Origin: Phycisphaerae bacterium | Lineage (GTDB): Bacteria; Planctomycetota; Phycisphaerae; Phycisphaerales; SM1A02 | Reading direction: 5' to 3' | DNA length: 64,000 nucleotides | Assembly: GCA_016795065.1 (NCBI GenBank) | Contig: JAEUIU010000041.1 | Location: forward strand, 1-64,000 | Part shown: positions 37,194 through 47,401 of the stretch, in pieces | Position numbering within the stretch: the first letter of the stretch is position 1 | Layout: each line of letters begins with the position of its first letter | Program-made: the position numbers and the translations under genes | The notes under the pieces: generated by a model | Databases searched by the model: none | Told to the model about the DNA's origin: nothing | What the model saw: the letters and a program-made list of their open reading frames with translations, nothing else

Positions 37194-38759
37194 TCAGCCG
37201 CCGCCAAGCGGATCGCGCTTGCCACCGCTTGAAATCAGGTCCTCGGCGATCGCCGTCACGATCTTCTCCTGAAGGGCTCGAGCCTTGGACACGGCGTCGC
37301 CCTCGACAAGTTCGTTGCAGAGCACCGAAAAGCTCATACATCGCCCGTCCGGGGCGGTGACAAAGCCGGAGAGGCAGGAGACACCGCGGATGTAGCCGGT
37401 CTTGCACTGGACGACGCAGCCGGTGCGCTCGATGTCCTTGAACCGCTTCTTTACCGTGCCGCTCTGGCCACCGACCGCGAGGGAGTCCTTGAAGGCCTGG
37501 CCCAATTCGGAATCGCGGTGGAAGGAATTGAGCCACGCGGTGACGAGTGATGCTGTGACTCGGTTTTCGCGCGAGAGCCCCGATCCGTCGTCAGGGGCGA
37601 AGGGCGCGGAGAGGGCAGGATTGGCGATCCGCTCGGCGATCGCGTGCCGAAGCGCCGCCGTTCCGTTGGCCCAGGAGCCTGGTGCCTTCGACGCGGCACG
37701 GCCGAGCCGCTTCAGCAGACACTCCGCGTAGAGGTTGTCGCTGTCGGTGTTGCAGCGGTAGAGCACTGTCACGATCGGGGTCCGCACTTCGGGCCCGACG
37801 GCGTTGCCTTCGAGGTAACTCGGATCTTCAGGCGTCGCCGCTCGGAAGCTTCGAACGGTGATGCCTGCAGCACGTAGCCGCTCGGCGAAGAGCTTCGCGA
37901 AAAAGCCCGGATTGTCATGCAGCGTCACGGGAATCGGGTCCACCGCCGCGACCTTTACGTTGCCGTTGAACGTGATGGCGTTCTGGCTCGGCGGACGGTT
38001 GATCCAGAAGGTGTGCCTGTCCTGCGAGCCGGTGCGACTGCGAGTGTTGTTCTCGCGAATGATCCACGGTGCTTCGGGGGCGATCCTCGACACATCGGCG
38101 CTTCCTCCCGAGCGGGGGCGCGGCCAGACGTGCAGCAGGTTGTGGTGAAAGTTGAAGCCCCAGACTTCGGCGCAATAGTCCTCCTTGTACTGGTCCTTTG
38201 GCCAGTTGGGATGGAAGGCGACACTGTCGAAGATGCGCCCATCGACCACGAGCTCGTCAATCGCGGTGATCTGGTCGTCCTTCAACGCCTTCACCCACAT
38301 CGACAGGAGCGTCTCGACGTCGAGGCCCTTGCGCTCGACACCCTTCTCATCGGTGTAGGTCATTTCGGCGAGGAGGTCGGGATCACCGAAGGCCGGATCG
38401 CCGTCACCCAGAATCACGAGGTCATCGTGGGCCCGCATCATCCGGGTACGGAAAGCGAAGTCCTTCCCGAAGGCGTGCAGAAACGCGCCGGTGGTGAAGA
38501 GCTTCATGTTGCTCGCCGGCAGCAGCGGTCGCTCGGCATCGATTGCAATGATCGAGGCATTCGTATCGGCGTTGCGCACGCTGATCGAGGCCTTCGCCTT
38601 GCGAAGGTCGATGGTTCTGAGGGCCCGCTGGACGTCGGCTTCCAGGTCCGCCCGCGCGGACGTTGCGGGAACGAGAAGTCCCACAACGAGCAGGGTGAGG
38701 AGAAGCAGGGGATGGAGGGCCGGCGAGCGACGGGCGCTTCGATCACAACAGAAAGGCAT
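37194..38759 (-). CDS. dacB: D-alanyl-D-alanine carboxypeptidase/endopeptidase (PBP4 family)
   Basis: A 521-residue exported class C penicillin-binding protein. Signal peptide about residues 1-38; active-site triads SNMK (within LLPASNMKLFTTGAFL), SDN (NTDSDNLYAECLLKRLG) and KTG (CKTGYIRGVSCLSGF). The PBP4-type insertion between SxxK and SxN is present. It trims peptidoglycan cross-links in the periplasm, consistent with planctomycetes having a peptidoglycan wall. The DNA shows GC composition and codon use like its neighbours. Confidence 0.93.
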   Translation of the reverse strand: MPFCCDRSARRSPALHPLLLLTLLVVGLLVPATSARADLEADVQRALRTIDLRKAKASISVRNADTNASIIAIDAERPLLPASNMKLFTTGAFLHAFGKDFAFRTRMMRAHDDLVILGDGDPAFGDPDLLAEMTYTDEKGVERKGLDVETLLSMWVKALKDDQITAIDELVVDGRIFDSVAFHPNWPKDQYKEDYCAEVWGFNFHHNLLHVWPRPRSGGSADVSRIAPEAPWIIRENNTRSRTGSQDRHTFWINRPPSQNAITFNGNVKVAAVDPIPVTLHDNPGFFAKLFAERLRAAGITVRSFRAATPEDPSYLEGNAVGPEVRTPIVTVLYRCNTDSDNLYAECLLKRLGRAASKAPGSWANGTAALRHAIAERIANPALSAPFAPDDGSGLSRENRVTASLVTAWLNSFHRDSELGQAFKDSLAVGGQSGTVKKRFKDIERTGCVVQCKTGYIRGVSCLSGFVTAPDGRCMSFSVLCNELVEGDAVSKARALQEKIVTAIAEDLISSGGKRDPLGGG

Positions 38760-38966: not shown

Positions 38967-39731
38967 ATGCGTTGCACTCTTGCTCTTTTGACACTCGCTC
39001 TCGGGGCCGCGGCCACCTCGGCGAACGCCGGCCAATGGAACCTGACCTATGACGGTCAGGGCTCGAATCTGCTCACCAACGTTCACTATGACGCGAACGC
39101 CTCGTGGAACGCCGGAGCTGCTTCCAGCTTCAACGCCATCCACGTTGGTGAGCACCTCTTCCACATCGGTGGACTGAACTACTCGACCTTCTGCGTCCAG
39201 CTCTATGAAGGCCTGAACGTCGGTTCGACGGTCTGCTTCGACGAGGTCGACGTCGCTTCCGTTCCTGACGCCCCGCCCGAACCGGGACCGATGGGTGCCA
39301 TCAAGGCGACCCTCATTCAGGATCTCTACTGGCGCTTCCACGACTTCGCGACGGACGAGTCGGTTGACAGTGCAACCGCGAACCTCCGCAACGCGGCGTT
39401 CCAGCTCGCCATCTACGAGCTGAGCCACGAGAACTTCGACGCTGGCAGCGCTGGCGATGCCCTCGCCCAGATCGACCTTGATCAGGGAGCGTTCCAGGCG
39501 GCTGGCCGATCTCAGACCGCTGGGTCTGCCGAAGCCGTCCAGCTCGCTGCTGACATGCTTGCCGCCCTGGGAGGAGACGGATTCCACTTCTTCGGGAGCG
39601 GGCTCAAGGGCTTGACCAACCCCGATTACCAGGATCAGCTCATCGTTGTGCCGCTCCCGGCCGTGGCGGGTATGGCTCTCGCTGGATTGGGCATCGTGGG
39701 AATGGCCCGTCGCCGCATGAAGAAGGCGTAA
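38967..39731 (+). CDS. Putative Cys-Gln thioester surface protein 1, VPLPA-CTERM-like tail
   Basis: A 254-residue exported protein, first of four tandem paralogs. Signal peptide 1-22 (ATSANA). A beta-rich core holds TFCVQLYE with Cys76 and NAAFQLAIYELSHEN with Gln146, the two motifs expected of a Cys-Gln internal thioester domain. Between them is VPDAPPEPGPMG, shared by the family. The C-terminus VVPLPAVAGMALAGLGIVG with a following ARRRMKK is a VPLPA/PEP-CTERM-type sorting signal (Pro motif, hydrophobic helix, Arg cluster). GGAAGG precedes the ATG. It has its own terminator. Likely a surface protein released or anchored by an exosortase-type enzyme; the thioester is inferred, not shown. Confidence 0.88.
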   Translation: MRCTLALLTLALGAAATSANAGQWNLTYDGQGSNLLTNVHYDANASWNAGAASSFNAIHVGEHLFHIGGLNYSTFCVQLYEGLNVGSTVCFDEVDVASVPDAPPEPGPMGAIKATLIQDLYWRFHDFATDESVDSATANLRNAAFQLAIYELSHENFDAGSAGDALAQIDLDQGAFQAAGRSQTAGSAEAVQLAADMLAALGGDGFHFFGSGLKGLTNPDYQDQLIVVPLPAVAGMALAGLGIVGMARRRMKKA

Positions 39732-40135
39732 GCCCAGCAGTAAATCATTCCGTGTGATGCACGGGGCAGGCATTTGGTGCGATCGCAATCGATCCGCCCT
39801 CGCCTGCCCCGTTTCCATGCGCGCGGTTCAGGAACGGCCGCTGACGTGTCAAAACGGCCCGAACTGGAAAGCTGATCGAAACCCTCGTGCATCGGCGCCC
39901 GAACAGGACCAGGAGTTCAGAGAGGTTACCGCTCGTTCGAGTTCCAGACGTTGGTCCGAGACCTTCGTCTGAGACCGCCCGCGACAGGTTACGGGGCTCG
40001 GGTGCGCAAATGTCTGCGCTTTCCTAGCTCGTGCAGATGGATTTGGGTGCGGACTTGCGGTATTCTCCGGGACTCGCGCTGGCCGTGTGGCGGTTTGCGC
40101 GATCATTGCTTTGTGCACACCAGAGAGGTCGAGAA
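39732..40135. other. 404-base spacer between array genes 1 and 2
   Basis: Contains the terminator of gene 1 (39762-39816) and presumably the promoter of gene 2. No ORF was accepted. GAGAGG at 40122-40127 is the ribosome site of gene 2. Confidence 0.4.
39762..39816 (+). terminator. Terminator of array gene 1
   Basis: An 11-bp perfect stem (arms ACGGGGCAGGC at 39762-39772 and its complement at 39803-39813) with a 30-base loop, followed by a short T-run (GTTTCC). Confidence 0.55.
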
Positions 40136-40879
40136 ATGATGAAGGCTATCACTCTTTCCGCAGTCGCCCTTGTGGCGACCGCTGTGGCCCAGTCGGCGTC
40201 CGCGTCGAACTGGACCATGACGTTCGACGGCTACGGTCTTTACGAGAACGTTGGCGTCCGCTTTATGAACAACGAGACCTGGAACTCGGCGACCGCCGTT
40301 TCGGGCTTCGCTGGCGTCAAGGCCGGGCAGCACAACTTCTCGGTCTTCGGGAAGACCTACAACAACTACTGCGTCCAGCTCTTCGAGACCGTCGGGCAAG
40401 TTGGCGACGTGCACACTTGGTGTACCGCCGCTCTCGCTGACGTTCCGGACGCTCCGCCGGCCCCCGGTCCAATGGGCGCCATCAAGGCCATCCTCGTCCA
40501 GGATCTCTACGCTCGTTTCCACGAGACCGTGAAGACCTCGGGCGACTCGGTCCAGCACGCGGCTTTCCAGGTCGTTCTCTGGGAGCTCACGCACGAGAAC
40601 TTCGCTGCTGCCGATGCCGATGGGGCTCTCGCTCAGGCGGACCTCCTCGCTGGCGCGCTGCAGATGAACGGCGCCAAGGCGGACGTCCTGACCGCCGCGA
40701 ACGCGATGCTCGCCCTTCTTGGTGAAGGCGGATTCCGGTCGCTCGGCGACAACCTCTTCGGTCTCACCAGCGAAAGCCGACAGGATCACCTCGTGGTGGT
40801 TCCGATCCCTGGTGCCGCGCTCCTCGCGGGCGTCGGCCTGCTCGGTGCCGGCCTCCTTCGCCGCCGCATGGCGAAGTGA
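40136..40879 (+). CDS. Putative Cys-Gln thioester surface protein 2, VPIP-CTERM-like tail
   Basis: A 247-residue paralog of the array. Signal peptide 1-24. Thioester-type motifs: NYCVQLFE with Cys79 and HAAFQVVLWELTHEN with Gln145, separated by VPDAPPAPGPMGAIKAILVQDLY. An extra cysteine (Cys96, HTWCTAAL) is shared with gene 1 (Cys90) but not with genes 3 and 4. Tail: VVPIPGAALLAGVGLLGAG then LLRRRMAK. Two adjacent ATG codons (40136 and 40139); GAGAGG upstream serves either. Confidence 0.88.
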   Translation: MMKAITLSAVALVATAVAQSASASNWTMTFDGYGLYENVGVRFMNNETWNSATAVSGFAGVKAGQHNFSVFGKTYNNYCVQLFETVGQVGDVHTWCTAALADVPDAPPAPGPMGAIKAILVQDLYARFHETVKTSGDSVQHAAFQVVLWELTHENFAAADADGALAQADLLAGALQMNGAKADVLTAANAMLALLGEGGFRSLGDNLFGLTSESRQDHLVVVPIPGAALLAGVGLLGAGLLRRRMAK

Positions 40880-40930
40880 GTTCGTTGACCAACCTGATGT
40901 GATGGCCTCGATCGAATCCGCATGACCCAT

Positions 40931-40964
40931 CGCTCCGCAGCGAAGTTCGCTTCGCTGCGGAGCG
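40931..40964 (+). terminator. Strong hairpin after array gene 2
   Basis: A 15-bp perfect stem (40931-40945 with 40950-40964) closed by a TTCG tetraloop. No T-run follows, so it may stabilise mRNA ends or act as a weak terminator. Confidence 0.5.
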
Positions 40965-41075
40965 GGCATGCGAAACGGCTCGACTCGCCAGGCCAGAGAA
41001 GAAGGAAACCGTTACCACACTTCAACGCTGCTGAGCCAAAGGCCCCCGGTCGTTGAGGCTAGGAGAATGACAGAG

Positions 41076-41810
41076 ATGAGCAGGACAATTGCAATCACCG
41101 CCGCCTTCGCCATTGCTGGCGCCGTCGCGGCCTCGGCCGAGGCAACCAACTGGACGCTCACGTTCACCAACGTGACTCCGAACATGGTCGTCGGCATCAA
41201 CTACAACGGCGCTCGCTCGTTCGCCGCTGGCCCGGCTGGCTCATACAACAGCGTCTACGCCGGTCGCATGCAGTGGAATGGCCCGTACGGGAAGACCTAC
41301 TCCACCTACTGCACCCAGCTCAACGAGTACATTTCGTGGGGTCAGACCGTGACCTACACCGAAACCGAAGTTGAGAACGTGCCGGACGCGCCGGGAACCC
41401 CCGGCCCGATGGGCTCGATCAAGGCGTCGATTCTCCGCGACCTCTATGCCCGTCACTACGCGACGGTGATGGCAAGCTCGAGCAGCGAGCTGAACGCCGC
41501 CTTCCAGATCGCCGTGTGGGAGATCACCCACGAGAACATCAATGCGGCTGATGCGAGCACCGCGCTCGCCCAGCTCAACCTCCTGAACGGCGCCATGCAG
41601 ATCAACGGCAGCAATGCCAGCCTGCTCGCCGCCGCGAACTCGCTCCTTGCTGACCTCGGCATCGGTGGTTTCAGGTCGTTCGACGGCCTCCTCGGTCTGA
41701 CCCACGCGTCGGCCCAGGACCAGCTTCTCGTCGTCCCAGTGCCGGTTCCGGCCCTCCTCGCTGGCGTTGGCCTGCTCGGAGTCGCTGCACTCCGACGCCG
41801 CATGAAGTGA
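41076..41810 (+). CDS. Putative Cys-Gln thioester surface protein 3, VPVP-CTERM-like tail
   Basis: A 244-residue paralog. Signal peptide 1-24. Motifs: TYCTQLNEYI with Cys79 and NAAFQIAVWEITHEN with Gln144 (the best match in the array to the CxQ/QxAxW thioester pattern). Linker VPDAPGTPGPMGSIKASILRDLY. Tail: VVPVPVPALLAGVGLLGVA then ALRRRMK. AGGAG lies ten bases before the ATG at 41076 and only one base before an earlier in-frame ATG at 41067, so the later start is preferred. More similar to gene 4 than to genes 1 and 2. Confidence 0.88.
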   Translation: MSRTIAITAAFAIAGAVAASAEATNWTLTFTNVTPNMVVGINYNGARSFAAGPAGSYNSVYAGRMQWNGPYGKTYSTYCTQLNEYISWGQTVTYTETEVENVPDAPGTPGPMGSIKASILRDLYARHYATVMASSSSELNAAFQIAVWEITHENINAADASTALAQLNLLNGAMQINGSNASLLAAANSLLADLGIGGFRSFDGLLGLTHASAQDQLLVVPVPVPALLAGVGLLGVAALRRRMK

Positions 41811-42156
41811 TATCAGACGGGCTTGGCAAGCAGGCCTAAGCTCGTTTCTGCAAACCTCCTTGAGCACAAGCACCACCGGGGCGAACTCACGTTCGCCCCG
41901 GTGGTTGCTTTTCGGCGCGAGGAGCCGGGGAGTATCGAGTTCTCGGCGGTGTCGCCGTCCGGGAATTGGCGGCCCGGCAGTGGATCGGGCTCGATGTTCC
42001 ATCTGTGCGGGCCTTGGGCTCGCCTGATCAGCGCAAGAACGGCCCATGGCGTGGCGGATGTCGAGGCGTGGCGTAGGTTGGTGGAACGAGTTGACGCAGG
42101 ACGCGTCGACTCTCCGCACGCAGTTTGATCAGAACGAAGGGATTCGGAGCACAACC
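41811..42156. other. 346-base spacer between array genes 3 and 4
   Basis: Holds the gene 3 terminator (41868-41912) and the leader of gene 4, with GGAG near 42146 as ribosome site. No other feature seen. Confidence 0.4.
41868..41912 (+). terminator. Rho-independent terminator of array gene 3
   Basis: A 14-bp perfect GC-rich stem (41873-41886 with 41891-41904), loop TCAC, followed by TTGCTTTT. The strongest terminator in the window. Confidence 0.85.
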
Positions 42157-42939
42157 ATGGATAGGAAGAGCTTCATCGTCGCCGGTGCTGTCGGGAGCAT
42201 GTTCGCCGCTGCGTTCATCGCATCGAGCGCGTCTGCCGAGAACTGGACGCTGACGTTCACTGGGCTCGGTCCGGCCAAGGTCGTGAGCGCCAACTACAAC
42301 AACGCCCGCACGTTCAACGCGGGGCCGGTCAGCAGCTACAACAGCTACTGGGCTGGTGAAATGAAGTGGAAGAATGCCCAGGGCAAGCAGTTCAAGACCT
42401 ACTGCACCCAGGTGAATGAGCACATCAACTTCAACCAGACCGTGACCTATCAGCAGGTCGCGCTTGAACAAGTCCCCGATTCGCCGCCAGCCCCAGGCCC
42501 GATGGGGGCCTACAAGGCGACGGTGCTTCGCGATCTGTACTCCCGCTTCTATCACTCGGTGAAGGCCTCGGGCAGCGACACCATGAACGCCGCCTTCCAG
42601 TGCCTCGTCTGGGAGATCACCCACGAGAACACCACCGCCCAGTCGGCTGCGGGCGTTCTCGGCCAGCTCAACCTGGGGCTCGGTGCGTTCCAGTTGAATG
42701 GCAGCGGAAACAACAACGTTGGTGTCTTCAGCACCGCGAACGCGATGCTGGCCGAACTCGGTGGTTCGAACAACGACGACTTCCGCTTCTTCAACAACGG
42801 CGACAACCTTCGTGGCCTTCGCCACGACACGGCTCAGGATCAGATTCTCGTGGTCCCGATCCCCGCTCCGGCTCTTATGGCCGCTGCCGGTCTCGTCGGC
42901 CTGGGTATCTGGCGTCGCCGTCGGGCCAACGCCGCCTGA
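42157..42939 (+). CDS. Putative Cys-Gln thioester surface protein 4, VPIP-CTERM-like tail
   Basis: A 260-residue paralog, last of the array. Signal peptide 1-28. Motifs: TYCTQVNEHI with Cys83 and NAAFQCLVWEITHEN with Gln148; linker VPDSPPAPGPMGAYKATVLRDLY. It has a second cysteine directly after the Gln (Cys149), a difference from the others that could alter the reactive site. Tail: VVPIPAPALMAAAGLVGLG then IWRRRR. The N-terminal half matches gene 3 closely (ENWTLTF, NYNNARTFNAGPVSSYNS). Confidence 0.88.
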   Translation: MDRKSFIVAGAVGSMFAAAFIASSASAENWTLTFTGLGPAKVVSANYNNARTFNAGPVSSYNSYWAGEMKWKNAQGKQFKTYCTQVNEHINFNQTVTYQQVALEQVPDSPPAPGPMGAYKATVLRDLYSRFYHSVKASGSDTMNAAFQCLVWEITHENTTAQSAAGVLGQLNLGLGAFQLNGSGNNNVGVFSTANAMLAELGGSNNDDFRFFNNGDNLRGLRHDTAQDQILVVPIPAPALMAAAGLVGLGIWRRRRANAA

Positions 42940-43074: not shown

Positions 43075-44373
43075 TCAGGTCTGGGCGATGCCCCGAAGGA
43101 ACGTCGCCAACGCCGCGGCCAGAACACCACGCTCATACAGGGCGACATTCGGTCCCTGGATTGACTCGTTGAACGCTCCCCGCACCCAGCCGGCATGGAT
43201 GGCGGTCAGCGCTGCAGCCAGAGCTTCGTCGTCGCAGGGGTCGGCGATGAAGCCACGGCCGGTTGCCTCGATGATTTCCCGGGCGTCGCCTTCTGGCAGT
43301 GCGCCGAGGATGGGCCGTCCCGTCGCGATGTATTCGTAGGCCTTTCCAGGCACGATTCGCGACCGGACTCCGGCAGGGAGCCCGTGCAGAGGGAGGAAAA
43401 GGGCGTCCGCTTCACGGATCGCCCGCACGCTGTCGCCGTGGGAGAGGTATCCGGTGAACTCGACCGCGTCGGCGACGTTGGACTCCTCAACGCAACGCGA
43501 GGTCCACTCGTCCTTCTGCCCGACGACGACCAGACGAATCGCCCGACCTGCTTCGCTCTGCCGCTCACGCAGCATGCTGACCGCCCGCAAGAGGTGAAGC
43601 GGGGTTCGGCCGCTGGCGACAATTGGTTCTGGTACGTAACGGAGAAGAGAACCGACCCTCTGCCGAAGCGAGCGGCCTGGGTAGAGTGGCTTGGATAGGA
43701 AGCTCCCCGTGAAGACCAACCGCAACAGGCCGTTTGGCCGACTTGCTGGATCGATCCGTGGGGCTGGTTGTGGGAAGTCGTCCGCTTCCCAACCGTTCGT
43801 GACGACACTTACTCGCTCTGGTCGCAGTGACGGCTCGAACTCACAGAAGAGTCGTTTGCATTCCGGTGTGTTGGCCACGACGCCGTCAGCGCGACGAAGC
43901 ATCGCCCGCATCGCTTGGGCCTCACGGCGCCAGTGCAAGTAGGTTCGGTAGCTCTGCCAGCCATCCAACGCCCAAGGATCGCGAAGGTCGAAGACGACCG
44001 GAATGCGATGCCGATCGGCCAGCGCCGCTCCCACGCACCAGAGTTCGAAGGGCGACATCGTCAGCAGAAGGACGTCGGGCCGGTTGCGGCGGATCTCCTC
44101 GTCAGCGATCTGCTCCACGGCGGATAGCCATCTGTTGAGGCCGCCGGCAGGATCTGGTGGGGTCCGAATGACTCGAGCCTGCTTGGTACCCGAGAGACCA
44201 GCCAGGAGCGACGCGTCCTCAGGTTCCCAGTAGTTTCGCCGTGCCGGCGGAGTCCGCGTGACGACCGTGCAATCGACTCCCAAGCCCGGGAAGTGGCGGG
44301 CAAAGGAACTGGGACGCTGTGTGCCTGCGCCACCGTCGGGTGGGAAGTAGTACGCGAAGAGAAGAACCCGCAT
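43075..44373 (-). CDS. Family 4-type glycosyltransferase of the polysaccharide locus
   Basis: A 432-residue GT-B glycosyltransferase. N-terminus MRVLLFAYYFPPDGGAGTQRP is the typical Gly-rich acceptor-domain start; PVVFDLRDPWALD and ANTPECKRLF follow. The C-terminal donor domain has VEFTGYLSHGDSVRAIREAD, ALFLPLHG, RIVPGKAYEYIATGRPILG and EGDAREIIE. Specificity unknown. Transcribed away from the main polysaccharide operon and toward the thioester array, with which it converges. Confidence 0.9.
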   Translation of the reverse strand: MRVLLFAYYFPPDGGAGTQRPSSFARHFPGLGVDCTVVTRTPPARRNYWEPEDASLLAGLSGTKQARVIRTPPDPAGGLNRWLSAVEQIADEEIRRNRPDVLLLTMSPFELWCVGAALADRHRIPVVFDLRDPWALDGWQSYRTYLHWRREAQAMRAMLRRADGVVANTPECKRLFCEFEPSLRPERVSVVTNGWEADDFPQPAPRIDPASRPNGLLRLVFTGSFLSKPLYPGRSLRQRVGSLLRYVPEPIVASGRTPLHLLRAVSMLRERQSEAGRAIRLVVVGQKDEWTSRCVEESNVADAVEFTGYLSHGDSVRAIREADALFLPLHGLPAGVRSRIVPGKAYEYIATGRPILGALPEGDAREIIEATGRGFIADPCDDEALAAALTAIHAGWVRGAFNESIQGPNVALYERGVLAAALATFLRGIAQT

Positions 44374-44641
44374 CGACCGCGAAGTATCGGCATCGGGCTC
44401 TCTGGAGGTTTGGCCGCTGTGGAACTTTGCGGGTCTTACCTGATGGGAGGCGGGCAGGGCTTGGGCCGAAAATCGGCGGCACTGGGGACGCGAAAGGCGA
44501 GGCTGCTACGCTCCGGGTGCATCTGTAGCATCTGGCGCGGCTCCATCGCACGGGGAGATCGGGAGAGCGGCAGGCGGTTGTTGCGCCGTATTGGAGAGTG
44601 GAATGGTCCCTGTTTCGACTGGCGACCTCAAGGAGCCTGTG
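44374..44641. other. Divergent spacer upstream of the beta-helix gene
   Basis: A 268-base region that should hold promoters for the leftward glycosyltransferase and for the rightward polysaccharide locus. AAGGAG lies six bases before the ATG at 44642. Confidence 0.4.
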
Positions 44642-47401
44642 ATGAACCGTTTCCGACTTGTCTTGCCGGTGCCATCCTTCACGTTCGGGCCGCTTGCCGT
44701 TGCCTGTGCGGTCGGTCTCACGACTGCCATGCCGACGTTCTCGCAAGCCGTCGCCCAGAACGGCGGTGGATCGGGTGGACTGCTGTCCGCCGGCGGCAAC
44801 TCGATTGGAAAGATCCAGGTCCGGGACTCGAAAGCGCCATTCGTGGTGCGAATCGATGAGGATGGGAAACTCGCTCCCGACGCAGTGAAGCGGCTGGTGG
44901 CCGCCATGGATGCCAATCCCGGACGCTTGGTCGCGCTGTCCGCAAGCGGTCTTGACCTCGATCGAGGTGGAGACGCAGCAAAGCAGGAAGCGCTCGCTAA
45001 GCAGCTGCAGGCGGTGATGGCCCAGGTCAAGAAGCTCCGCCCGTCACAGCCGCTGGCCTTGCGCGGCTTGCCTCGCGAGGAGCAGGGGGGAAGTCGGGCG
45101 AAGGCTCGAGCCCTGAATGATCGATTTGCGAAGGTAATCAAGTCAGCGGACGCGATCGTCCTGACGGGTGGTGTCATCGGCGCGTCGGGCAACGGAAGCG
45201 CCGCTGTCGCGAAGTCCTTTCCCGAGGCGATGCGTTTGGCTGGGAAGCGGGCGATTCTGTACAAGGTGGATTCCGGTTGGAAGTCCCGAGTGACCAGCAA
45301 CGCAACAGGCAACGGCGGCGCGTCCTCGAGCGGCAGTCCTGCCGTCGGCGGTGCCTCGGATCCTGTGCTTGCTCAATCGACCGAAATCCCGATGAGCGGC
45401 GGCTCTGGCGGCGAGGTGATCGCCGAGGTGCTCGGCGGTTGGGGCGGTAGCGGTGCCGGAGACCTCAACGGCGATGGGCTCATTGATGCGGTGGACTTGG
45501 CGATCGCTCTCTCGATGGCGAGCAGTGGCGGCGGGAGCGATGTGCCCGAGACGCCCGTGGTCATTCAGCCACCCGAATCAGAACCAGTTCCGGGCTCGAT
45601 TGATGGCGAGACGTCGGAACCTGCCGGCGGCGACGATGAACCCGTGGCTGGCGGTGGCGACGACCCGGCGGAGGGTGGTGGAGATGAGCCGGTGGCCGGT
45701 GGCGGCGATGACCCACCAGCCAATGGCGGCGACGACCCGCCAGCGAACGGCGGCGGGATGCCGCTCGATCAGCTCTTCCTTCTCAACGGCTCCGGCTTCT
45801 CTGGCCCGACCGCGCCTCCGGCCAATGTGGGCCAGGCTGGCGACGTCGGCTTCGATGCGAAGGCCATCGCCCGCTGGAGCACCGTGCCTTTCCAGACCTT
45901 CAAGGACACGCTCCGCGTTGGTGTGGTTGCATTCCACCGCAACGGCATTGAGAAGGTCGCCTTCAGCGCCAACGGCGGTGCCTGGGTGAACGCGACAGCC
46001 ATGACCATCAACCCCAGCACGGGCATCAGCGAGTACTGGGTCACGCTCAAGGCGTCGGACTTCCCCGATGGTGCGGTCGAAATCCGGGCCATCGCCTATC
46101 CCAAGAACGCCGGCATTCCGCGTGTTCTGGGCGGTGCCTACCAGACCGCGCTCAACGCGGCCCCGGCGATGGAGGGCGAGCATTCGATGTTCGCTTGGTC
46201 CAACTTCGCTGGCACACTCGACCGCCTGCCGCAGTTTGTCTCGGCGACCGGCGACGACACCAGCGGCGACGGCACGATCAACAGTCCCTTTAAGACGCTC
46301 TCCCGGGCTGCGAAGCAGATTCAGCTTCAGTACACGACCTGCGACAACGGCGTCATCTACTGCCTCCCCGGCGAGTACGACTTCGACATGAAGTGGGGCT
46401 CCACCTTCGCGAAAGCCAACGACCGCTACATCACCATTATGCCGGCCCCCGGTGTGTTGCGCGATCAGGTCCTGATCGAGGAGGCACGTCCGAAGACGGC
46501 CCGTGTCCACCTCAGCAACGTCACCATCAAGACCAATGATGCCGGCAACTTCTACACCGGCTACAACGATCTTCGGACAGTGCTTTGGATCGATGGGTGT
46601 GCCGTCTCGGCCAAGAACGGTCGCTACGGCAGCAGCCAGAAGGTGCTCCAGACCTGCACGCCCTACGTCACCGAGTCCTCTTGGAATGATGCTCCGGACG
46701 GTCCGACCGACGCGGTCATGGTCCGCAACACCAACATCACCAAGCTGTGTAGCGACATGGTCTCGGGCGTTCAGGTGGTCTTGAACGTGACTGGTGGGGA
46801 CATCGACCCGGCCAACACCGGGGCCCACCCCGACATCTATCAGATCTATCGGCCGACGGGCAGCTTCGAGAACCACGTGATCTATGGCGTGCGGGCAACC
46901 AACTTCCTCGCTCAGGGCGTCTTCATCGCCGCCCTCGCCAATGGCGAGAAGATCCGTAACTGCGCCTTCGTCAACCTGGTGCTTGACGCCAACCAGTCGA
47001 ACTTCACCTCGCAGGTCAATCGCGAGAGCGAACACCTGCTCATCGTGAACTGCACGTTCGACCAGACCTTCTACATCCGCATCGGCGACTTCGATGACGT
47101 CAGCTTCGTCGGCAACATCTTCAAGGCCGTGACCCTGGACCTCTCGAAGTGCACCCCGGCCCAAGCGGCGACCATCGACTGGCGCCACAATCACTTCGTC
47201 GACAACACCTCCTACGGAACCTATACATTCGGCGCAGACATCACAACCGGACCCGCGCCGGTCGTGAACTGGGCGATGGGCGACTTCAATCCGCTCCCGA
47301 CCGGCTGTCTGGTCGACCGAGTTCAGGCTGTCTACAGCAACTATGATGCGGCCGGCAGCCCGCGCGAGCCGATGACCGCGGTAGGCGCGCTGGAGGATTG
47401 A
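44642..47401 (+). CDS. Large secreted protein: dockerin-like half repeat, acidic Gly linker, right-handed beta-helix
   Basis: A 919-residue exported protein. Signal peptide about 1-38. Residues 40-230 form a helical domain of unknown type. Near 272-296 lies one dockerin-like half repeat (GDLNGDGLIDAVDLAIALS) without its partner. A linker of repeated GGDDP/GGDEP/GGDDPPAN units spans about 318-378. From about 528, VSATGDDTSGDGTINSPFKTL and many short turns (NVTIKTND, NTNITKL, NCAFVNL, NCTFDQTF) indicate a DUF1565/pectate-lyase-like parallel beta-helix. Such folds occur in polysaccharide lyases and epimerases, which fits its place at the head of the polysaccharide genes, but no catalytic residues were identified. 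Confidence 0.88.
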   Translation: MNRFRLVLPVPSFTFGPLAVACAVGLTTAMPTFSQAVAQNGGGSGGLLSAGGNSIGKIQVRDSKAPFVVRIDEDGKLAPDAVKRLVAAMDANPGRLVALSASGLDLDRGGDAAKQEALAKQLQAVMAQVKKLRPSQPLALRGLPREEQGGSRAKARALNDRFAKVIKSADAIVLTGGVIGASGNGSAAVAKSFPEAMRLAGKRAILYKVDSGWKSRVTSNATGNGGASSSGSPAVGGASDPVLAQSTEIPMSGGSGGEVIAEVLGGWGGSGAGDLNGDGLIDAVDLAIALSMASSGGGSDVPETPVVIQPPESEPVPGSIDGETSEPAGGDDEPVAGGGDDPAEGGGDEPVAGGGDDPPANGGDDPPANGGGMPLDQLFLLNGSGFSGPTAPPANVGQAGDVGFDAKAIARWSTVPFQTFKDTLRVGVVAFHRNGIEKVAFSANGGAWVNATAMTINPSTGISEYWVTLKASDFPDGAVEIRAIAYPKNAGIPRVLGGAYQTALNAAPAMEGEHSMFAWSNFAGTLDRLPQFVSATGDDTSGDGTINSPFKTLSRAAKQIQLQYTTCDNGVIYCLPGEYDFDMKWGSTFAKANDRYITIMPAPGVLRDQVLIEEARPKTARVHLSNVTIKTNDAGNFYTGYNDLRTVLWIDGCAVSAKNGRYGSSQKVLQTCTPYVTESSWNDAPDGPTDAVMVRNTNITKLCSDMVSGVQVVLNVTGGDIDPANTGAHPDIYQIYRPTGSFENHVIYGVRATNFLAQGVFIAALANGEKIRNCAFVNLVLDANQSNFTSQVNRESEHLLIVNCTFDQTFYIRIGDFDDVSFVGNIFKAVTLDLSKCTPAQAATIDWRHNHFVDNTSYGTYTFGADITTGPAPVVNWAMGDFNPLPTGCLVDRVQAVYSNYDAAGSPREPMTAVGALED

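Follow-up and report, generated by a model that had tools for sequence, protein, structure and literature searches.

The stretch of DNA analyzed here (the window) comprises the first 64,000 nucleotides of contig JAEUIU010000041.1 from a Phycisphaerae bacterium. Between positions 38967 and 42939 on its forward strand lie four adjacent open reading frames encoding paralogous proteins of 247-260 amino acids, wherein the other copies are 42-55% identical to copy 4. Each protein exhibits the same layout, with an N-terminal hydrophobic signal that closes in an A-x-A-like site, a single core domain of approximately 195-205 residues, and a tail composed of VPxP, a helix and RRR. The core, a putative thioester domain (TED), carries a [YF]C(V/T)Q motif with its Cys at positions 76, 79, 82 and 83 (copies 1-4, respectively), a helical AAFQ motif with its Gln at positions 146, 145, 147 and 148, and a C-terminal QD(Q/H) motif. 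In that order, [YF]Cxx, FQxxx[WY]E and QD[QH] occur in these four open reading frames only across the whole window, and in none of 800 residue shuffles of the four, and so a chance motif was rejected.

A preliminary description, made from the sequence alone, had correctly recognized the four adjacent paralogs with their signal peptides, Cys motifs, AAFQ-type motifs and tails, as well as the extra residues Cys90/96 of copies 1-2 and Cys149 of copy 4. Its positions for the Cys and the AAFQ Gln also hold for copies 1, 2 and 4; in copy 3, however, the Cys is residue 82 here (the earlier Cys79 depends on the choice of start) and the Gln is residue 147, not 144. The QD(Q/H) motif was absent from that description, yet it is the more strongly conserved. 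The features of the locus are as follows.

37194..38759, reverse strand: D-Ala-D-Ala carboxypeptidase (S13), flank and synteny marker
38967..39731, forward strand: putative TED copy 1, 254 amino acids, signal peptide, TED and PEP-CTERM-like tail; predicted thioester Cys76-Gln222
39192..39194, forward strand: copy 1, codon of the predicted thioester Cys76 (FCVQ)
39402..39404, forward strand: copy 1, codon of helix Gln146 (AAFQ), the partner proposed in the preliminary description, predicted not to form the bond
39630..39632, forward strand: copy 1, codon of the predicted bond-forming Gln222 (YQDQL)
39648..39728, forward strand: copy 1, exosortase-type sorting signal VPLP-TM-RRR; Pfam PEP-CTERM score 18.3 bits, below the cut-off of 20.7
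40136..40879, forward strand: putative TED copy 2, 247 amino acids; predicted thioester Cys79-Gln216 (codons 40370, 40781), helix Gln145 codon 40568
40799..40876, forward strand: copy 2, sorting signal VPIP-TM-RRR; weak NCBIfam PEP-CTERM family tail matches
41067..41810, forward strand: putative TED copy 3, 247 amino acids, single Cys82; predicted thioester with Gln217 (codons 41310, 41715), helix Gln147 codon 41505; PF08341 E 0.077
41733..41807, forward strand: copy 3, sorting signal VPVP-TM-RRR; weak NCBIfam tail matches
41872..41914, forward strand: terminator-like hairpin with T-run, 3' of copy 3; count of such sites not above chance
42157..42939, forward strand: putative TED copy 4, 260 amino acids, extra Cys149; predicted thioester Cys83-Gln227 (codons 42403, 42835), helix Gln148 codon 42598
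42853..42936, forward strand: copy 4, sorting signal VPIP-TM-RRR; weak NCBIfam tail matches
43075..44373, reverse strand: glycosyltransferase, flank and synteny marker

The sites returned by the promoter and terminator scan were not above chance, and the phage records searched gave no match. Elsewhere in the window, positions 44591-47401 encode a secreted-looking protein of 936 amino acids with a dockerin-like stretch, DLNGDGLIDAVDLAIAL, and a stretch resembling right-handed beta-helix proteins, SATGDDTSGDGTINSPFKTL; this protein matches no Pfam family at E 0.001.

In the one congener searched (G001), the order RecQ, S13 carboxypeptidase, four TED genes and glycosyltransferase is kept. The TED orthologs of the two species are 52-63% identical, compared with 65-71% for the three flanking proteins just named, and in a tree copy 1 pairs with copy 1 of the congener and copy 2 with copy 2. 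From this one-to-one synteny and pairing we concluded that the array is old and that its copies have evolved separately, and thus the diversification among copies noted in the preliminary description is both real and old. The second Cys of copies 1 and 2 (Cys90, Cys96), located 14-17 residues past the putative reactive Cys, is shared by the corresponding syntenic orthologs in the congener. Two further paralogs reside elsewhere in the source genome (C61:24067 and C36:1858).

Several lines of evidence bear on the identity of the core domain. The [YFL]C(hydrophobic)(hydrophilic) motif of TEDs is found as [YF]C[VT]Q in all four copies, with Thr following the Cys in copies 3 and 4, so that this position is hydrophobic only in copies 1 and 2. 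Most members of the family carry an (A)FQxxxWE motif within the second of the long helices; it is variable, as is the TQxxPhiW motif of known TEDs. Among the homologs, 45 of 79 match the Pfam TED family (PF08341) at E<=0.1 (best E 7.4e-6), as do 25 of 43 members of a smaller homolog set, and each other Pfam family is matched by only one member of the core alignment. The paralog on C61 matches with E 0.007 and copy 3 with E 0.077, the latter at 13.9 bits relative to a gathering score of 22, and none of the window proteins reaches that score. The profile search proposed in the preliminary description therefore favors a TED at the family level, whereas every copy in the window falls below the cut-off. 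Matches above the TED cut-off are present in eight of 294 planctomycete genomes, and several of these are members of the same family as the array. Searching the PDB sequences with profiles of the family alignments returned only chance matches and no TED.

Predicted folds were also compared, as proposed earlier. AlphaFold2 models of copies 3 and 1, built with the family alignment, have pLDDT values of 94.5 and 96.4, respectively. When the copy 3 model was compared to the PDB with Foldseek, the first nine matches were TED chains (probability 0.57-0.99), including SfbI (5a0l, 0.99), Cpa (4c0z), Spy0125 (2xid) and BaTIE (6fwv), and the best non-TED match listed had a probability of 0.25. For copy 1, the SfbI TED was matched with a probability of 0.97 and the next best structure with 0.21. 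Solved TEDs are thus the sole credible PDB matches of both models, though the similarity is distant (TM-score ~0.45, rmsd ~11 Å over the full alignment, E 3e-3 to 6e-3). The order of elements in the models is that of TEDs, with a Cys at the end of a strand, two long helices of which the second bears FQ...W, a later helix and two final strands; in both models the QDQ motif lies at the last strand with its Gln at the start. There is no Class II beta-sandwich insert, which places the domain closest to Class I. Judging from these sequences and models, the core is very probably a divergent TED, and the family profiles, the fold comparison and the conservation pattern all support the earlier assignment of the proteins to a class of surface or released proteins with a Cys-Gln thioester domain.

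The preliminary description paired each Cys with the Gln of AAFQ, and named free replacement of one of the two residues among homologs as one observation that would speak against the pair. Just two residues are shared by all proven TEDs, namely the [YFL]C Cys and a C-terminal strand Gln (PhiQzetaPhiPhi); this strand Gln makes the bond, whereas the Gln of the TQxxPhiW helix adjoins the bond but is dispensable (PMC4450167, PMC6194298). In TED crystal structures the helix Gln hydrogen-bonds to the Cys backbone, and therefore a short distance between Cys and helix Gln is no test of the bond. Both this proximity and the presence of the helix Gln in 83 of 89 alignment rows might seem to favor the AAFQ pair. 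However, Ala, Gly or Cys occupies the helix position in six homologs whose Cys and strand Gln are both intact, and on the criterion set in the preliminary description the AAFQ pair fails. Of the 86 rows that span both the Cys and the strand site, by comparison, 85 retain the Cys (L118 has Ala) and 85 the strand Gln, the first Q of QDx; the one row that lacks this Gln is a frame-shifted piece (L039), such that every intact homolog has it. In the core alignment this is the sole invariant Gln (79 of 79), the Cys being conserved at >=90%. The TED encoded by pLS20, whose Cys68 was shown genetically to be needed for function, likewise lacks a Gln at the helix site, and its modeled partner, Gln256, lies within YQRLM (position counted from the reported Cys68). 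A bond to the helix Gln is therefore most improbable, and the AAFQ residue was very probably the wrong partner; the thioester idea itself survives with another Gln.

That residue should be the first Q of the QD(Q/H) motif on the C-terminal strand, as predicted from the alignment and by analogy with characterized TEDs. The distance from Cys to strand Gln is 135-146 residues in the four window copies, and the corresponding spacing is 129 in CpTIE and 152 in SfbI (PMC4450167). At the second Q of QDQ, other residues are freely accepted and are often hydrophobic, which is the PhiQzetaPhiPhi pattern; unlike that pattern, position +2 after the strand Gln is often Q rather than hydrophobic. From the conservation, the spacing and the pLS20 TED, we predict the bonds Cys76-Gln222, Cys79-Gln216, Cys82-Gln217 and Cys83-Gln227 in copies 1-4.

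Two other explanations would dispense with the thioester altogether. Many PEP-CTERM proteins are non-catalytic matrix proteins, and the array might encode ordinary representatives that keep a TED-like fold in which the Cys and Gln are structural and no functional thioester forms. The homolog with Ala in place of the Cys is in keeping with this explanation, which we nevertheless regard as unlikely because conservation in the core, where mean column identity is 20%, is highest at the Cys and strand Gln, and because the same two residues are universal in proven TEDs. Even less probable is that the Cys is engaged in intra- or intermolecular disulfides. The mature proteins of copies 1, 2 and 4 do contain a further Cys, but exactly one core Cys is present in 65 of 86 homologs, copy 3 included, which leaves these without a partner for an intramolecular disulfide. 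Dimerization would leave the invariant Gln unexplained, and a disulfide protein was rejected on these grounds.

Some relatives are unusual in their own right. The gene L118:764-1555 (reverse strand) carries the natural Cys-to-Ala change at the predicted thioester position (SWALELGP) with the strand Gln intact, and its genome has another gene of the family. In L115:1021-1851 (reverse strand) the helix Gln is replaced by Cys (AAFCALGWEIIH), which may be compared with copy 4, where the extra Cys149 directly follows the helix Gln. The gene L039:44-995, from a planctomycete metagenome assembly, is broken across two overlapping frames, by either a frameshift or an assembly error. Finally, L123, L125 and L126 are long-branch TED relatives from another planctomycete family, with open reading frames of 390-421 amino acids in which a long segment separates the TED match from the C-terminus.

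By inspection, all four copies end in a (V)PxP motif, a TM helix and a basic tail, and a P of the tail motif is conserved in 87 of 87 sequences. Matches to formal PEP-CTERM models remain below threshold (with Pfam, 18.3 of 20.7 bits for copy 1), and the NCBIfam matches, mainly to PEP-CTERM tails, are all far below cut-off. The predicted bond-forming Gln and VPxP are separated by exactly six residues in all four copies and in 51 of 86 homologs, and so the TED runs straight into the exosortase signal with no stalk.

The source genome encodes two exosortases (PF09721, E 1e-45 and 4e-45). More broadly, an exosortase is found in 43 of 43 family-positive genomes, some of which match through the tail only, compared to 159 of 294 genomes overall. 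Most of the family-positive genomes come from a single class, and nearly every sampled member of that class has an exosortase, so that the independent part of this association is small; outside that class, the ratios are six of six family-positive genomes versus roughly 105 of 240 (a count of lists). Among the exosortases listed, at least 13 of 66 longer family matches lie within 20 kb of one, in nine genomes of which some are closely related. Several of the linked TED genes directly follow an operon for exosortase, an EpsI-like protein, a polysaccharide tyrosine kinase, a sugar transferase and a PrsT-like TPR protein. Such arrangements, with the TED-family gene directly after or near the operon, are seen in several Phycisphaerae genomes (L138-L142). 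The window array is not beside an exosortase operon; a related operon resides on contig C24 of the source genome, with no TED gene within the stretch read.

These proteins share with Class I TEDs (SfbI-TED 5a0l, Cpa 4c0z/2xid; PF08341) the predicted fold and element order, the [YFL]C motif, a TQxxPhiW-type helix motif, the C-terminal strand Gln, the Cys-Gln spacing and the lack of the Class II insert. They differ in their diderm planctomycete host, in being a single domain with neither an isopeptide or ester stalk nor LPXTG, in the passage of the Gln strand directly into an exosortase signal, in having FQxxxWE, often followed by HEN, rather than TQ, and in scoring below the Pfam cut-off in the window. 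A TIE protein, composed of a TED, an isopeptide or ester stalk and LPXTG, was rejected because a single domain is immediately followed by the VPxP-TM-RRR tail. The pLS20 TIE protein, a conjugation adhesin with a Class II TED, is alike in its Cys-dependent function and in a modeled partner Gln set in a PhiQzetaPhiPhi context, but it has the Class II insert, a Cna stalk and a Gram-positive host; hhalign aligned the family with its TED only over the Cys region, and weakly. With PEP-CTERM proteins of exosortase (EpsH/XrtA-type) systems, the array shares the signal peptide, the tail and the exosortases in the genome, and some relatives also adjoin the exosortase/EPS operon with its EpsI-like and PrsT-like genes. 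Relative to named PEP-CTERM families, however, the array gives matches that are mostly tail-confined. We found no thioester PEP-CTERM family in NCBIfam or in the literature searched. A survey placed TEDs exclusively in Gram-positive bacteria (PMC4450167), and among the open-licence papers searched none was found to describe such domains in planctomycetes or in combination with exosortase signals.

Computation supports the relationship to TEDs, the conserved residue pair, the sorting signal, the presence of exosortases and the recurrent linkage to exosortase/EPS operons. We consider it probable that each gene encodes a single-domain, stalkless TED whose export would depend on its signal peptide and whose C-terminal VPxP signal would be the site of processing by an exosortase. 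After extracytoplasmic folding, an internal thioester would form between the [YF]C(V/T)Q Cys and the leading Gln of QD(Q/H), with release of NH3. Through this bond the protein would acylate a partner at an amine or hydroxyl group, and would thereby become covalently anchored in the exopolysaccharide/protein matrix or on a colonized surface. We infer the spontaneity of bond formation, the exosortase cleavage, the acylation and the nature of its target, and likewise any role of having four copies. The preliminary description called these proteins adhesins; in the sense of host-binding stalked proteins, the anatomy lends this term no support because a stalk is absent, and is more in line with a thioester protein that is released or fixed in the matrix.

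A broader and distinctly more tentative proposal is that TEDs provide the exosortase systems of diderm Planctomycetota in general with a module for covalent attachment, wherein secreted, stalkless proteins might acylate the exopolysaccharide or matrix proteins of their own cells rather than those of a host, which would couple exosortase release to covalent capture in the matrix. Thioester adhesins have so far been associated with stalked proteins that are anchored by sortase. A large branch of TEDs without stalks in diderm planctomycetes, with exosortase signals and repeated linkage to exosortase/exopolysaccharide operons, would widen the range of covalent adhesion, and would give a concrete chemical answer to the question of what some PEP-CTERM proteins do after their release.
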